Made by a program: the position numbers and the translations under genes
Assembly (NCBI RefSeq): GCF_014207595.1
Contig: NZ_JACHGY010000001.1
Span: 496,001 to 560,000, forward strand
DNA length: 64,000 nucleotides
Source: Algisphaera agarilytica
Lineage (GTDB): Bacteria > Planctomycetota > Phycisphaerae > Phycisphaerales > Phycisphaeraceae
Reading direction: 5' to 3'
The notes under the pieces: generated by a model
What the model saw: only the letters and a program-made list of their open reading frames with translations
Told to the model about the DNA's origin: nothing
Database searches by the model: none
Shown here: piece after piece, positions 7,385-60,000 of the stretch
Layout of the letters: every line of letters begins with the position of its first letter
How positions within the stretch are numbered: position 1 is the first letter of the stretch

Positions 7385-7472
7385 TTCGGCGGGTTCAAAT
7401 GTCAAAGAGCGAATCCGTGTCCCCCGCCTCACCCGCTGCCGTGGCCGGCGTGGGGTGGGCGGGTTGGGTTGT

Positions 7473-7607
7473 CGTTTCGATCCGATCGCGGAGCTTCAGA
7501 GACGCGGAGACGCGGAGCAAGGCAGGAAGACTTTGGTTTAAAAACCTATTGCCTTGGTTTTCCTCCGCGCCTTTGCGTCTCCAAAGCTCCGCGATCGGAT
7601 CGAAACG
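7473..7607. repeat. 135-bp imperfect inverted repeat
   Basis: The outer arms 7473-7505 and 7575-7607 are inverted copies matching at 31 of 33 positions. The sequence inside continues to mirror itself more loosely (CGCGGAG and AAGGCA tracts on both sides) around an AT-rich centre near 7535-7550. It encodes no protein. It could be a fold-back nonautonomous element or a decayed bidirectional terminator after ligA. No transposase or target duplication was identified. Confidence 0.7.
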
Positions 7608-7930
7608 AATCCCAGAACACGGACCCTCGACCAACGACGACGGGTTCCGACCTTGAGCGATCCCGGCAAGGTGGTGAGCTCAAGTGTCGCCACGCACCCG
7701 ACGTGTGCGTCAGCCCGGCTCCACGGATATGGGCGTGCTTGGTGCCTTGCCTGTGCGACCTTCACGCCTGAAGTGCCACCGTGGTCCGACATTAGGGGAC
7801 AGAGCGGGCCAGGTGTGCGCACAGAAAAGTCGCTGATTTCACGGAGATGAGCAATGACAAGGAGTAAGAATTTTTCTGCGTTGATGTTTTTCTGCGTTCG
7901 GGCGTGCCCCGTTGTGCGCACGGATCCGAC
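7608..7930. other. Noncoding stretch without recognisable genes
   Basis: Only short overlapping shadow frames occur here. The palindrome GTGCGCAC appears twice (7815-7822 and 7914-7921) around an AT-richer segment. I see no family-level coding signal, tRNA or terminator. Confidence 0.5.
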
Positions 7931-8081
7931 TTTAGCCCGGGGTCAATGACCCCGGGCCGCCGCGGGGGGCAATGACATGATCGTGGCATCCACTCAAACC
8001 ATACGAAACGGATTCATTGGCTCGGACCACGCAAACCCAACACGTCTGCCGCAGCAGCCCCGGGTCATTGACCCGGGGCTA
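7931..8081. repeat. REP-like paired palindromes with TTAGCCC / GGGGCTAA ends
   Basis: Two perfect palindromes lie about 100 bases apart: GCCCGGGGTCA-A-TGACCCCGGGC (7935-7957) and AGCCCCGGGTCA-T-TGACCCGGGGCT (8056-8080). As a pair they face each other with TTAGCCC at the left end and GGGGCTAA at the right end. Similar ends occur in the palindromes in mfd (12461-12528) and between infB and rbfA (31775-31838). A further GGGGCTAGCCCC palindrome follows at 8089-8100. Confidence 0.7.
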
Positions 8082-8163
8082 AGGGGGCGGGGCTAGCCCC
8101 CAATTCTGCGAGTCGGCCTCGCTATCGGCCGATGTCTGAGTATGCTGGGGGGGCAACTCCCGT

Positions 8164-11206: not shown

Positions 11207-14200
11207 ATGTCCGTTGAAGCGACCGCCTGGCACGATGTGGTGTGTGGGTCCGCGCCCGTTGGCGCGCTGGCCGAGGCGGTAGCGCGCGGGGACTCGGCGG
11301 CGGCGAACGGAGCGCGGGGGTCGGTCGCGGCGCTGGTCGCGGGCGGGGTGGCGCGGGAGCTGGGGCGGACGGTGCTACTGGTGGTGGCCCACCTCGACGA
11401 GGCGGACGATGCGCTGGACGACCTGGAGGGGTATGCCGAGGCGGCGGGCAGCCCGACGGGGTTGGTGGTCGAGCGGTTCGGGGCGCTCGAGGTGTTGCCG
11501 GGCGAGTCGAGCGTGAACCTGGAATTGCTGGCGGAGCGGCTGCAGGTGGTGCAGCGTGTGGTCGAGGGGCGTTACGCCAGTGCGACGAACGATGCCGCGG
11601 GCGGTGCCGCCCCACTGGCGAACGTGATCGTCGCGCCGATCCAGGCGTTGATGCAGGCGGTGCCTGAGCCGGACGCGCTGGGCGGTTTGACGCTGACGCT
11701 GCGGGCGGGGGAAGACATGCCGCCGGGCCGACTGCTGGACTGGCTGGACCGCGCGGGTTACTCCCGGCAGGACGCGATCGATCAGCCCGGCGACTTCGCC
11801 ACCCGCGGCGGGATCATCGACATCTACCCCGTCGCGGGTAAGGTGCTGACCGAGACCGATCAGCCCGGACCCGTCTCGCCGATCCGCCTGGACTACTTCG
11901 GCGACGAGATCGAAACGATCCACCGCATCGACCCCGACACGATGGGCTCAGGCGAGATGCTCCGCAGCGTCGGCCTCGTCGGCGGCACCGAGCACCAGGT
12001 CCAGTCCGACCACGGCACCGCCAACGTCCTCGACCTGCTGCCCGACGACATCGTCCCGGTCCTCCACGAAACCCTCGAGCTCAACGAGCAGGCCCGCGGC
12101 TACTTCGAACGTCTCACCAAGTCGGACGGCATCACGCCGCCCAAAGACGTGTTCAAGAAACTCACGTCGATCCCGCACCTCGAGCTCAACGCGTACTCCC
12201 AATCGTCCAACCCGCTGGCCAAGCGGATCGACCTGCCCGTCGCCGCCCTGCCGAGCTTCCACCAGGACGCCAAGACCGCGATCCGTGACCTGGGTGACCT
12301 CGCGGGAACGCCGGGCGTGGGCGTGACGGTGTTGTGCGGCAAGCCGGCCGAGCGCGATCGGCTGGTGGAGCTGCTCATCGAGCACGTGCCCGACCACTTC
12401 CGCAAGGTGGATGTGCGCGTCGGTTCGTTGCACCGCGGGTTTGTGTGGGAAGGTCTGTCGTTAGCCCCTGGCTCTGCCGGGGGGCGTGAGTTTAAGATTA
12501 ATCGCCCCCCGGCAGAGCCGGGGGCTAAGGGGGATGGCGGCCATTACTTCGTCCCGCACCACGAGCTGTTCCACCGCTACGAGACCCGGCGGCGCGTCCG
12601 CCGCGTCATGTCCGCCGCGTCGGGCAGTGCCTCGGGCGGCGATGCGTTCCTCGACCTCGACGTCGGCGACTACGTCGTCCACATCGATCACGGCATCGCC
12701 AAGTTCACCGGCCTCAAAACCATGCGCCCCCGCAAGAACGCTAAGGGCGAGATGACCGGCGGCGGGGAATACCTCACCCTGCAGTTCGCCGACCAGGCGT
12801 TGCTGCACGTCCCGGCCGGGCAGATCGACCTGGTACAGAAATACGTCGGCGGGTTCCAGGGCCGACCGCCGCTGTCGGTGCTGGGCGGTAAGCGGTGGAA
12901 GAAGCAGAAGGAATCCGTCGCGGATGCGGTGAAAGACCTCGCCGCAGAATTGCTTCGTGTTCAGGCGGCACGCGAGACGCAGCCGGGCGTGCGGTACCCC
13001 GGCGACACGGCGTGGCAAAAAGAATTCGAGGCCGAGTTCCCTTACGACGAAACGGAAGACCAGCTCGCCGCGATCGCCGCGATCAAGTCGGACATGTCCG
13101 ACGAGACGCCGATGGACCGGCTGATCTGCGGTGACGTGGGCTTCGGCAAGACCGAGGTCGCGATCCGGGGGGCGTTCAAGTGCGCCGAGTTCGGGAAGCA
13201 GGTCGCGGTGCTCGTGCCCACCACGGTGCTCGCCGAGCAACACGAACGCACGTTCCGCAGCCGGCTGGCCGACTACCCGTTCCGTGTGGAGTCGCTGTCA
13301 CGGTTCAAGACCGCCAAGGAGCAGCGCAAGACCCTCGACGCCGTCGAGCGTGGCGAGGTCGATGTGCTCATCGGCACCCACCGCATCCTGTCGGAAGATG
13401 TCAAGTTCGCAGACCTCGGCATGGTCATCATCGACGAGGAGCAGCGCTTCGGCGTCGAGCACAAGAACAAGCTGCTCGGGCTGCGCATGACCGCCGAGAT
13501 CCTCACGCTCACCGCGACGCCGATCCCGCGGACGCTGCACATGTCGATGGTGGGCTTGCGGGACATCAGCTCGCTGACGACTCCGCCGGTGGACCGCCGA
13601 TCGATCGTCACGGAAGTCATCCCGTACAACGAGCACCGCATCAAGCAGGCGCTCACCCGAGAGCTGGCCCGCGAGGGGCAGGTCTATTTCGTGCACAACC
13701 GCGTGCACAACCTGCAGACCGTCGCCGACGACCTGCAACGCCTCGCGCCGGGCGCCCGCATCGTCATCGGCCACGGCCAGATGCCGCCCAAAGAACTTGA
13801 AAAGGCCATGCTGACCTTCATGCGGCGCGAGGCCGACATCCTCGTGAGCACGACGATCATCGAGTCGGGCATCGACAACCCGCACGCCAACACGATGTTC
13901 ATCAACCAGGCGGACCACTTTGGGCTCGCCGAGTTGCACCAGCTGCGAGGACGAGTGGGTCGCTACAAGCACCGGGCGTACTGCTACATGCTGCTCCCCC
14001 CGGACCGCACGGTAAACGAGGTCGCCGCGAAACGGCTCAAAGCCATCGAGAACTACTCGATGCTCGGCGCGGGCTTCAAGATCGCGATGCGAGACCTGGA
14101 GATCCGCGGCGCGGGCAACCTCCTCGGCGCAGAACAGTCCGGCCACATCGCCGCGGTGGGCTACGAGATGTACTGCCTACTGCTGGAACAGGAAACCAAG

Positions 14201-14680
14201 AAACTCCGACACGAGCCGATTATCGAAGCCAGCAAATGCCACCTCGAGCTCCCGCCGCCCAAGCCCGGCAGCTCGATCCCCAAGCGCTACGTCCCCAGCG
14301 ACAAGCACCGCATGGAGGCCTACCGCAGGCTCACCCGCGTCGACACCCTCGACCAGCTCGACAAGGTCGTCGAAGACCTCACCGACGCCTACGGCAAGCC
14401 CCCCGCCGCCGCGCAGAACTTCATCGACCTCATGGAGATCCGCGTCGCCGCCAGCACCCAGCGCATCGACAAGATCCAGCTCGAAAAACCCGACCTGATC
14501 TTCACCACGGCCAAAACCAAACAAGTCCTCGGCCTGTTCAAAGGCGCCCCCGGCCGAGCGACCGAGCTCGACAACAACCAGGTCTACTACCGCCCACCCG
14601 CGAATTACCTCGAAGACCCCGCCACGCTCATCGCGGTCTTACGTAAGCTGTTGGTGCGTCCGCTTCGCGATTCCGCATAA
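11207..14680 (+). CDS. mfd: Transcription-repair coupling factor Mfd
   Basis: Mfd displaces RNA polymerase stalled at DNA damage and recruits UvrA. The 1157 residues follow the family order: UvrB-like N-terminal part; RNA-polymerase-interacting CarD-like domain near residue 483 (DLDVGDYVVHIDHGIAKFTG); superfamily 2 translocase with Walker A GDVGFGKTE (642-650) and Walker B DEEQ (743-746); TRG-like region with GRVGRYKHRAYCYML; and a C-terminal TRCF D7 domain. An unusual feature is a REP-like palindrome inside the gene (12461-12528), read in frame as residues 419-441 between the UvrB-like part and the ELFHRYETRR segment that precedes the CarD-like domain. The gene stands alone. Confidence 0.96.
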   Translation: MSVEATAWHDVVCGSAPVGALAEAVARGDSAAANGARGSVAALVAGGVARELGRTVLLVVAHLDEADDALDDLEGYAEAAGSPTGLVVERFGALEVLPGESSVNLELLAERLQVVQRVVEGRYASATNDAAGGAAPLANVIVAPIQALMQAVPEPDALGGLTLTLRAGEDMPPGRLLDWLDRAGYSRQDAIDQPGDFATRGGIIDIYPVAGKVLTETDQPGPVSPIRLDYFGDEIETIHRIDPDTMGSGEMLRSVGLVGGTEHQVQSDHGTANVLDLLPDDIVPVLHETLELNEQARGYFERLTKSDGITPPKDVFKKLTSIPHLELNAYSQSSNPLAKRIDLPVAALPSFHQDAKTAIRDLGDLAGTPGVGVTVLCGKPAERDRLVELLIEHVPDHFRKVDVRVGSLHRGFVWEGLSLAPGSAGGREFKINRPPAEPGAKGDGGHYFVPHHELFHRYETRRRVRRVMSAASGSASGGDAFLDLDVGDYVVHIDHGIAKFTGLKTMRPRKNAKGEMTGGGEYLTLQFADQALLHVPAGQIDLVQKYVGGFQGRPPLSVLGGKRWKKQKESVADAVKDLAAELLRVQAARETQPGVRYPGDTAWQKEFEAEFPYDETEDQLAAIAAIKSDMSDETPMDRLICGDVGFGKTEVAIRGAFKCAEFGKQVAVLVPTTVLAEQHERTFRSRLADYPFRVESLSRFKTAKEQRKTLDAVERGEVDVLIGTHRILSEDVKFADLGMVIIDEEQRFGVEHKNKLLGLRMTAEILTLTATPIPRTLHMSMVGLRDISSLTTPPVDRRSIVTEVIPYNEHRIKQALTRELAREGQVYFVHNRVHNLQTVADDLQRLAPGARIVIGHGQMPPKELEKAMLTFMRREADILVSTTIIESGIDNPHANTMFINQADHFGLAELHQLRGRVGRYKHRAYCYMLLPPDRTVNEVAAKRLKAIENYSMLGAGFKIAMRDLEIRGAGNLLGAEQSGHIAAVGYEMYCLLLEQETKKLRHEPIIEASKCHLELPPPKPGSSIPKRYVPSDKHRMEAYRRLTRVDTLDQLDKVVEDLTDAYGKPPAAAQNFIDLMEIRVAASTQRIDKIQLEKPDLIFTTAKTKQVLGLFKGAPGRATELDNNQVYYRPPANYLEDPATLIAVLRKLLVRPLRDSA
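12461..12528. repeat. REP-like palindrome inside the mfd coding sequence
   Basis: Arms 12461-12486 and 12503-12528 are inverted copies matching at 25 of 26 positions around a 16-base loop. The ends TTAGCCCC and GGGGCTAA are the same as in the infB-rbfA palindrome (31775-31838). The mfd frame stays open through it. Confidence 0.85.
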
Positions 14681-31774: not shown

Positions 31775-31838
31775 TTAGCCCCGGGCTCTGCCCGGGGGCT
31801 CCATCACACTCACCTCCCCGGGCAGAGCCCGGGGCTAA
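31775..31838. repeat. REP-like palindrome between infB and rbfA
   Basis: Arms 31775-31797 and 31816-31838 are perfect 23-base inverted copies with TTAGCCCC and GGGGCTAA ends and an 18-base loop. It starts 8 bases after the infB stop and ends 14 bases before the rbfA ATG, so it lies in the operon mRNA and may reduce or stabilise downstream message. Confidence 0.85.
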
Positions 31839-32299: not shown

Positions 32300-33085
32300 T
32301 TGGCCAAACAAGACCCTGCCACCGCCAAGAAATTCGCCGCCCTGCTGAAGAAGAGCATCACCGCGTACAAGGGTGAAGACCCGCCGCCGCGTGACCCCGT
32401 GGCACAGCTCATCGTCAGCTTCATGCAATGGGACTCGACCCGCACCAAGGCCGAGGACGCCTTCGTTGCGCTGATGGAAGAGATGATCGACGTCAACGAC
32501 CTGCGCGTGAGCCACCCCCACGAGCTGGTCGAGGTCATCGGCAAGGACTACCCCAACGCCGTCAACCGCGTGATCCGTCTGCGTGAATCGCTGCACGAGG
32601 TCTATGCCCGCGAGCACGACATCCAGATGCACTCGATCGCCGGCAAGGGCAAGAAAGAGCAACGGGCCTACCTCGACTCGCTGCCCGGCATCGCCCCGTA
32701 CATCGCGGCCCAGGTCACGCTCCTGTCCTTCGGCGGCCACGCCATGCCGATCGACGACAAGCTCCTGGCCCTGCTGATCAACGAGGGCTGCCTCCACGAG
32801 GGCACCTCGATCGCCGACGCCGAGTCGTACCTGGTCCGCCAGATCAAAGCCGGCGACGCACTCGAAGCCCACCTCGCGTTGCAAGCCTGGGCCGACAAAC
32901 GCAAGGCCCCCGCCGCTAAGGCTCCCGCCAAGACGACGAAAACCACCAAGGCCAGCAAAACCACCAAGTCGACTAAGACTACGAAGAAGAAAACGACCAA
33001 GACCACCAAGGCGACCAAGTCGGCCCCGAAGAAGAAGGTCGCCAAGAAGAAGACCACGAAAAAGAAGGTCACCAAGAAGAAGTAA
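32300..33085 (+). CDS. HhH-GPD (endonuclease III-like) protein with lysine/threonine-rich tail
   Basis: Residues ~1-205 follow the HhH-GPD fold of base-excision glycosylases: YLDSLPGIAPYIAAQVTLLSFGGHAMPIDDKLLALLINEG contains the helix-hairpin-helix and the conserved aspartate. The catalytic lysine of endonuclease III (LPGVGRKTA) is absent, and there is no iron-sulfur cysteine cluster, so a monofunctional glycosylase or a DNA-binding relative is more likely. The last ~55 residues are repeats of K, T and A (TKKKTTKTTKATK...), like histone H1-type tails, and should bind DNA non-specifically. Start is TTG 32300, 3 bases after rbfA, so translation is coupled. Confidence 0.75.
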   Translation: MAKQDPATAKKFAALLKKSITAYKGEDPPPRDPVAQLIVSFMQWDSTRTKAEDAFVALMEEMIDVNDLRVSHPHELVEVIGKDYPNAVNRVIRLRESLHEVYAREHDIQMHSIAGKGKKEQRAYLDSLPGIAPYIAAQVTLLSFGGHAMPIDDKLLALLINEGCLHEGTSIADAESYLVRQIKAGDALEAHLALQAWADKRKAPAAKAPAKTTKTTKASKTTKSTKTTKKKTTKTTKATKSAPKKKVAKKKTTKKKVTKKK

Positions 33086-59088: not shown

Positions 59089-60000
59089 TCACATGCGGCG
59101 ACGCTCACGCTCCCGGGCGACTTCGATCGAATACTTGGCCCAGGGCTTGGCTTCGAGGCGCGGCCGGGAGATCGGCTTGCCCGATTCGATGCAGACGCCG
59201 TAGGTCTTGTCGACGATGCGTTGGAGGGCGTCGTCGATCTCGAGGATGGTCTTGCGCTCCGACTCCATGAGGCCGAGGGTGAACTCCTGCTCATAGTTGT
59301 CCGAGCCGACGTCGGCCATGTGCAGGGGCATGTGGCTGATCTCGCCGGAGTTGCCGCTGCGGGCGGCCTCGAGCCCCTGAACGTCGCCGATGATCTCGGC
59401 CCGGCGTTCGAGCAGTTCCTGGCGGAAGAAGCGCAGGTCCTTGGCGGTCAGGCCGGTCTTGATCTTGCGGAGCTGGGCGTTGGTCAGCGGCTCGTGGTCT
59501 TGGGGGTTGTAGGCCGGGGCGGGCGCGGCGGCGAGCGACGCGTAGGGCACGCGCGGGGCCTTGAAGGTGGATTTCTTCTTGGTCGTCTTTTTCTTGGTGA
59601 CCTTCTTCGCCAGCTTCTTGGTCACCGCCTTCTTCGCCGGGGCTTTCTTGGCAACTTTTTTCTTGGCGGGAGCCTTCTTGGTGACGGCCTTCTTTTTCGT
59701 CACCTTCTTCTTGGTGACTTTCTTGGATGCCGCCTTCTTGGCGACTTTCTTCTTCGCCACCTTCTTGACCGCCTTTTTCTTGGTGACCTTCTTGGTTGCC
59801 GCTTTCTTCGCGGGAGCCTTCTTGGTCACCTTCTTTTTGGTGGTCGTCTTTTTAGCGGGGGCCTTCTTGGCGGCTTTCTTCTTGGGCGCAGCCTTCTTGG
59901 TCGACTTCGTGACCTTCTTGGTCACCGCCTTCTTCTTGGTCGTCTTTTTGCGGGTCGCCGACGTTGTGCGAGAGGACTTCTTCTTCGTGGATTTGGCCAC
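59089..60000 (-). CDS. DksA/TraR-type protein with long lysine-rich N-terminal repeat and degenerate zinc finger
   Basis: The 303-residue protein has two parts. Residues 1-~150 are repeats of lysine with T, A, V and P (AKKAPAKK, VTKKKVTKKK), like histone H1 or HupB tails. The C-terminal part is DksA-like: LRFFRQELLERRAEIIGDVQGLE, HMADVGSDNYEQEFTLGLMESERKTILEIDDALQRI, then TYGVCIESGKPISRPRLEAKPWAKYSIE. Of the four zinc-finger cysteines only the first (GVC) remains. DksA-family proteins bind RNA polymerase; the tail should add DNA or RNA binding. Start is GTG 60000, with GGAG 7 bases before it. lspA follows. Confidence 0.85.
   Translation of the reverse strand: MAKSTKKKSSRTTSATRKKTTKKKAVTKKVTKSTKKAAPKKKAAKKAPAKKTTTKKKVTKKAPAKKAATKKVTKKKAVKKVAKKKVAKKAASKKVTKKKVTKKKAVTKKAPAKKKVAKKAPAKKAVTKKLAKKVTKKKTTKKKSTFKAPRVPYASLAAAPAPAYNPQDHEPLTNAQLRKIKTGLTAKDLRFFRQELLERRAEIIGDVQGLEAARSGNSGEISHMPLHMADVGSDNYEQEFTLGLMESERKTILEIDDALQRIVDKTYGVCIESGKPISRPRLEAKPWAKYSIEVARERERRRM

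Follow-up and report, generated by a model that had tools for sequence, protein, structure and literature searches.

A REPIN read in frame within Mfd of Algisphaera agarilytica, and other repeats at matching loops in its relatives

The RPE of Rickettsia are palindromic repeats that form translated, in-frame segments of core proteins unrelated to one another, and short tandem heptanucleotide repeats are known from cyanobacteria. The family treated here is closer to REPINs, which parts of Bertels and Rainey (2011; PMC3116915) describe as dispersed inverted doublets of REPs, with doublets dominating and with REPs beside the gene of a RAYT. The main text of another study (PMC3733652) describes REP dimers or groups that lie inside ORFs and encode 20-30 residues, in many genes of DNA synthesis and repair and in some for tRNA synthetases; the hosts include Planctomycetes and the verrucomicrobial O. 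terrae, and in recB of two Xanthomonas species different REPs stand at about one site. Because REP insertions in repair genes are already described there, the view of the original prediction that protein-coding repeats are rare holds only in part, and what is of interest is rather their recurrence at matching loops. None of mfd, ruvB, mutS and Phycisphaera is named in that main text. Among the papers listed, and judged by titles and abstracts, none dealt with REPINs inside Phycisphaerae repair genes, and no paper was found on heptanucleotide tandem repeats in Planctomycetes.

The analyzed stretch, called here the window, comprises 64,000 nucleotides of the A. agarilytica genome (G000), the genus belonging to the Phycisphaeraceae. 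On its forward strand it carries mfd (11207-14680), encoding the transcription-repair coupling factor of 1157 aa, with matches to the UvrB_inter, CarD/RID, DEAD, Helicase_C and TRCF domains. Positions 12461-12528 of this gene form a 68-bp inverted repeat whose 26-bp arms are identical at 25 of 26 positions, precisely where a near-perfect repeat had been predicted. The left REP (12461-12486, forward strand) consists of a TTAG tag and then CCCCTGGCTCTGCCGGGGGGCG, translated as LAPGSAGG. It is followed by a 16-nt hairpin-loop spacer (12487-12502), to which those of other copies appear unrelated, and by the right REP, inverted (12503-12528, reverse strand), with its CTAA end and then GGGGG, translated as PPAEPGAK. 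The frame remains open through the whole insertion, so that, as was also predicted, the palindrome is read as Mfd residues 419-441 (LAPGSAGGREFKINRPPAEPGAK). When folded as single-stranded DNA, it reaches -37.2 kcal/mol, whereas shuffled sequences average -14.65 (z -10.4), none of the 200 shuffles being as stable.

In the whole genome (4.17 Mb), the REP arm pattern is found 41 times with at most three mismatches, and a reversed-pattern control 0 times. The 41 arms make up 22 elements, namely 19 inverted pairs within 150 bp and three single arms, one of which has a diverged partner in its flank. Most arms read TTAG followed by CCCC(C/G)GGCTCTGCC(C/G)GGGG; some cores are TTT or another triplet, and the spacers differ. 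Each REP is itself palindromic with a short 5′ tag (CCCCSGGC-TCT-GCCSGGGG, TTAG before most arms), and the CC ahead of the tag, at -3/-2, is conserved in 34 and 35 of the 38 paired arms. The family is dispersed and mainly extragenic, 17 of the 22 elements having no convincing ORF that spans them, and several intergenic copies are 7-20 bp from a called ORF end. A second copy in the window (31775-31838) is intergenic, 9 bp past the end of an ORF, and is presumably the element elsewhere with which the mfd palindrome was said to share its ends. The mfd palindrome is a REPIN, that is, two inverted TTAG-tagged REPs forming one hairpin; its reading as an inserted and translated REP-like element was right, and is amended here to a REPIN with a linked RAYT-like gene. 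The inverted doublets, the spacers in the hairpins and the REPs next to a RAYT gene are as in the system that parts of PMC3116915 describe; unlike it, the family has few copies (22), five of them in frame in genes, whereas REPs were counted there extragenically. It also differs from the GTAG and CGTC superfamilies as given in the main text of PMC3733652, neither tag being present: at the end where the former carries the tetranucleotide GTAG, these REPs carry TTAG.

Exact arms occur in nine of the 61 genomes compared: 29 each in G000 and G027, 24 in G052, 20 in G008, 13 in G041, five in G028, two in G025 and one each in G016 and G019, with the reversed control at 0 in all. The two congeners, G001 (78% complete) and G002 (91% complete), contain none. 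Elsewhere in the A. agarilytica genome (G000:C1:805993-806616), two REPINs stand 484 bp apart around an ORF of 134 aa which is not a RAYT.

Pfam Y1_Tnp matches three places in this genome. One is an ORF of 163 aa (G000:C1:846421-846912) situated between two REPINs of the family (846304-846413 and 846909-847055). It scores 25 bits, above the Pfam Y1_Tnp cut-off of 23, and 24.5 bits with the NCBIfam model for REP-associated tyrosine transposases (NF047646), below the curated cut-off of 80; it is therefore considered a divergent RAYT. In a RAYT search of the 61 genomes, 30 had a match at E 0.001, and neither congener (78% and 91% complete) was among them. The nearest relative (G041:C34:777-1223, 58% identity) is 70 bp away from a REP that has the variant core of G041 itself, GGTTCTACC. 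When the surroundings of nine RAYT loci were scanned for hairpins, only G010 (48% identity) and G004 (40%) proved to have them on both sides of the gene. At the G041 locus two hairpins are located farther off; five further loci gave none, and neither did G000's own, where the flanking arms are mutually different and fall below the scan threshold. Given what is known of Y1 transposase chemistry, and given the REPIN model in the literature, it is most likely that the REPIN, as a non-autonomous mobile hairpin, was moved in its single-stranded form by this linked RAYT, of the Y1/HUH type.

The mfd copy is not the only one to be read in frame. With genes called by codon usage and identified by Pfam/NCBIfam, high-scoring ORFs run in frame through five of the 22 elements, at residues 419-441 of Mfd, 205-227 of RuvB, 313-333 of LeuRS (leuS), 248-271 of a GT4 glycosyltransferase and 279-301 of an HI0933-like flavoprotein. 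Since in-gene copies were recognized by an ORF running through them, this count misses insertions that break the frame, and the method itself partly selects for copies that keep it. At a sixth element (3001339) the only ORF is antisense, scores lower and has no Pfam match, and this element was left out. The left arm is translated LAPG(S/F)A in four of the five copies, the flavoprotein using the other open frame; a strict preference for the LAPG frame was dropped, as it is used in six of seven copies (four of G000's five, and one each in G041 and G008). The predicted likeness to the Rickettsia RPE stands by analogy: palindromic repeats are read in frame within the unrelated proteins of five genes, as there, but in an unrelated phylum and by a REPIN-like family with a linked RAYT; the likeness is one of mode of working. 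Altogether, the genome offers a clean multi-gene example, in a planctomycete lineage, of protein sequence that arose from a small mobile hairpin, with its likely transposase identified.

Among 64 elements examined from G008, G041, G027 and G052 (six arms of G052 and one of G027 being excluded), five were flagged as in-gene. Two are convincing, in LeuRS of G041 and in a ketoacyl synthase of G008; the other three, namely a fragment of a transposase, a sulfatase in which the REP falls at residue 21 and an ORF with no family assigned, were discarded. We do not lean on an in-gene excess specific to G000, because the result depends on judgement over these discarded cases (5/22 versus 5/64, p 0.115; 3/64 as an intermediate count, p 0.024; 2/64 after the three discards, p 0.011).

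Two of the other host proteins could be compared at the insertion site. The congener G002 has short turns without any insert at the sites of both RuvB and LeuRS; in LeuRS the turn measures 28 residues in G000 against eight in G002, which amounts to 60 nt for an element of 62 bp. Residues 206-232 (27) of G000 RuvB align against two residues of PDB 7x7q, and in LeuRS the insert falls close to where the match to the editing domain (295-500) begins, at a place where PDB 1h3n is shorter. For mfd, an empty site, whose existence had been raised with the original prediction, is inferred only, both congeners having a different filler of 25 residues.

For RuvB and LeuRS, panels of 30 rows each, including G000's own, were drawn from the 40 and 39 of 41 genomes that matched, genomes without a fetched locus being left out. 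In RuvB, both of the two tandem arrays of period 5-11 are in the turn, and both belong to G020, a member of another genus which has an octamer array at the site matching G000's REPIN; with period 12, three arrays lie in the turn versus one outside. In LeuRS, the turn with the G000 REPIN also holds a REPIN in G041, which belongs to another family; the core of the latter is a variant of its own, GGTTTTACC, suggesting that it was inserted independently. LeuRS hairpins scoring at least 11 number four in the 1,269 nt of the turn, one of them G000's, versus eight in 85,761 nt elsewhere; tandem arrays do not favour this turn (two in, three out), and for them LeuRS is a weak case. Similar GGGGCCGA-type octamers were noted in G020 in both ruvB (L212, L314) and mfd (L039, L311), at the two sites that hold REPINs in G000.

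The position within Mfd was examined in an AlphaFold2 model of moderate quality (26 sequences; mean pLDDT 74.6, pTM 0.51). The model predicts strands at residues 412-415 and 445-450, and residues 420-442, between them, have the lowest confidence (pLDDT <50). A separate disordered stretch, residues 457-482, precedes the RID (CarD-like) domain, which Pfam matches from 484 onwards. The insertion therefore lies in a disordered turn (about residues 414-445; 12446-12541, forward strand), about 40 residues ahead of that domain, and outside the linker in which it had been placed. In a profile alignment to an E. coli-type Mfd, the strand after the turn pairs with ...NLALICESDLLG, in a part of the protein that we take to be domain D3, the aligned chain being presumably that of E. 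coli.

An Mfd query at E 0.001 matched all 61 genomes, the match being partial and RecG-like in G035 and a fragment in G003. In all, 143 other Mfd loci were compared; 58 of the other 60 genomes contributed 64 of them, and the remaining 79 overlap with these in part, some loci being duplicates or fragments. None contains both TTAGCCCC and GGGGCTAA, and none the REPIN peptides LAPGSAG or PAEPGAK. Residues 419-441, whose uniqueness was to be checked, are thus without a counterpart among the Mfd compared, and the element is one of five in-frame copies in the genome. With no exact arm in either congener and no REPIN in these 143 loci, the insertion appears, on the sequences compared, to be lineage-specific. 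As separate observations, G005 has, besides its ordinary Mfd, a second Mfd-like match (G005:C1:3606121-3608091; residues 441-1085, 42% identity) that falls within an open frame of 1732 aa, and the mfd genes of G023 (L059) and G017 have one stop codon each within the Mfd match.

After removal of rows with an identical central 120 residues or with either flank missing, 115 Mfd rows remained, including that of the window, and after removal of two further duplicates, 113 distinct ones. The length of the turn ranges between 5 and 75 residues, with a median of 10 and at least 20 residues in 20 of the 113 rows, and in some relatives it holds other repeats. Of the tandem arrays of period 5-11, seven fall in the turn (4,809 nt) and two in the remaining 376,620 nt (binomial p 1.8e-12); including period 12 raises this to nine versus three (p 1.7e-15), both p values being too small because the rows are related. 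The seven arrays are spread over six genomes and are of period 7 in G015 (CCGCCAT), G024 (AAATCCG, two arrays), G025 (CGCCACT), G028 (ATCATCA) and G023 (CAGACCC), and of period 8 in G020 (GGGGCCGA); period 12 adds G004 and G012. That the units are different argues for independent origins, and the tandem arrays are free of ascertainment bias, because there is no such array in the turn of the window itself. The Mfd turn of G008 also shows, by eye, a degenerate array, and that of G041 a short hairpin. Hairpins alone were rejected as proof of capture: at a score of at least 9 they are only mildly enriched in the turn (seven in 4,872 nt versus 252 in 384,345 nt), and the enrichment that appears at higher scores rests partly on the copy from which the search started.

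The dispersed period-7 arrays resemble the cyanobacterial heptanucleotide repeats, from which they differ in that several are in frame in conserved genes, among them those of the Mfd turn. Samples of 60-80 kb contained 17 arrays in G008 (60 kb), five in G024, one each in G015 and G025 and 0 in G028 and G020, against 0 in shuffled controls; since four of the samples, those of G015, G024, G025 and G020, had been selected to surround mfd (and, in G020, ruvB as well), these counts provide no unbiased array rate. The single arrays of G015 and G025 are those of mfd itself. In-gene arrays were found in mfd (two) and mutS (two) of G024, and in the genes of an M17 aminopeptidase and an FKBP-type isomerase of G008. 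The mutS gene of G024 (L301:9041-12139) holds its two heptamer arrays in frame, about 15 kb from the mfd with two more.

Very probably, then, the REPIN inserted in an indel-tolerant turn of Mfd and was kept because it was tolerated. The single-stranded element would have entered the part of mfd that encodes this turn, ahead of the CarD-like domain, and could have survived there since both arms carry open frames and the net length would have preserved the frame. The encoded peptide, rich in Pro, Gly and Ala, would be disordered and would leave the fold intact, with full-length Mfd presumably made and working. Tolerance rather than benefit would best explain the retention, because the turn is length-variable, the arms leave frames open and the peptide is predicted to be disordered. 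Furthermore, tolerance of loops would be the simplest cause of the recurrence of repeats at matching loops.

The same recurrence could be taken as a sign that the inserted peptides are adaptive, repeat capture tuning Mfd, RuvB and LeuRS and lineages refilling the same sites. The concentration of arrays in the Mfd turn would fit with this, as would the different REPIN variants held by G000 and G041 in one LeuRS turn, the octamer arrays of G020 in both the Mfd and the RuvB turns and the two heptamer arrays in MutS of G024. Yet the turn is short in most Mfd, the inserts derive from unrelated repeat classes, non-repair genes hold such inserts too (aminopeptidase, FKBP, ketoacyl synthase, GT4), and plain tolerance predicts the same recurrence; adaptation is thus an unlikely cause. 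A related idea, possible though doubtful, is that the turns of Mfd, the RuvB lid, the LeuRS editing domain and MutS would be standing repeat traps in Phycisphaerae, with peptides that alter activity. If that were true, whichever repeat is active in a lineage, be it a REPIN, a heptamer or octamer array or another hairpin, would be recurrently captured as coding sequence. In turn, comparison across relatives makes it testable whether repeats in repair genes mark selection, or merely any loop that tolerates them.

It seems very unlikely that the hairpin was kept for a role in the DNA or RNA of mfd, such as transcript stability, pausing or attenuation, with the peptide being incidental. The RNA stem is indeed very stable, with -85.3 kcal/mol over 131 nt, which none of 200 shuffles equalled, and, as already mentioned, several intergenic copies are close to ORF ends; but the other four in-gene copies are in unrelated genes, the relatives have tandem arrays in the Mfd turn, five of six with no hairpin beyond a score of 9 (the exception, L038, reaching 15), and the length of the turn varies even where there is no repeat. 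Finally, that residues 419-441 are ancestral protein sequence, palindromic by chance, is suggested by the intact frame and the recognizable domains on either side, but it is rejected as next to impossible by the absence of the segment from all 143 other Mfd loci, distant ones being where it had been proposed to look, and by the census of 41 arms versus 0 for the control pattern.

The window contains other repeats as well. At 7932-8082 there is a long palindrome with 34-nt arms 83 nt apart, whose ends (TTAGCCCGGGGTCAATGACCCC... and ...GGGTCATTGACCCGGGGCTAA) resemble those of the REPINs and whose core is different; it could possibly represent a second TTAG-tagged REP family. A 49-nt inverted repeat at 7472-7608, 88% complementary and with its arms 39 nt apart, is unlike the REPIN family. 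Dense imperfect repeats, spaced mostly at 12-15 nt, occupy 59573-59976 and 32918-33082, and probably encode Lys-rich tails on opposite strands.
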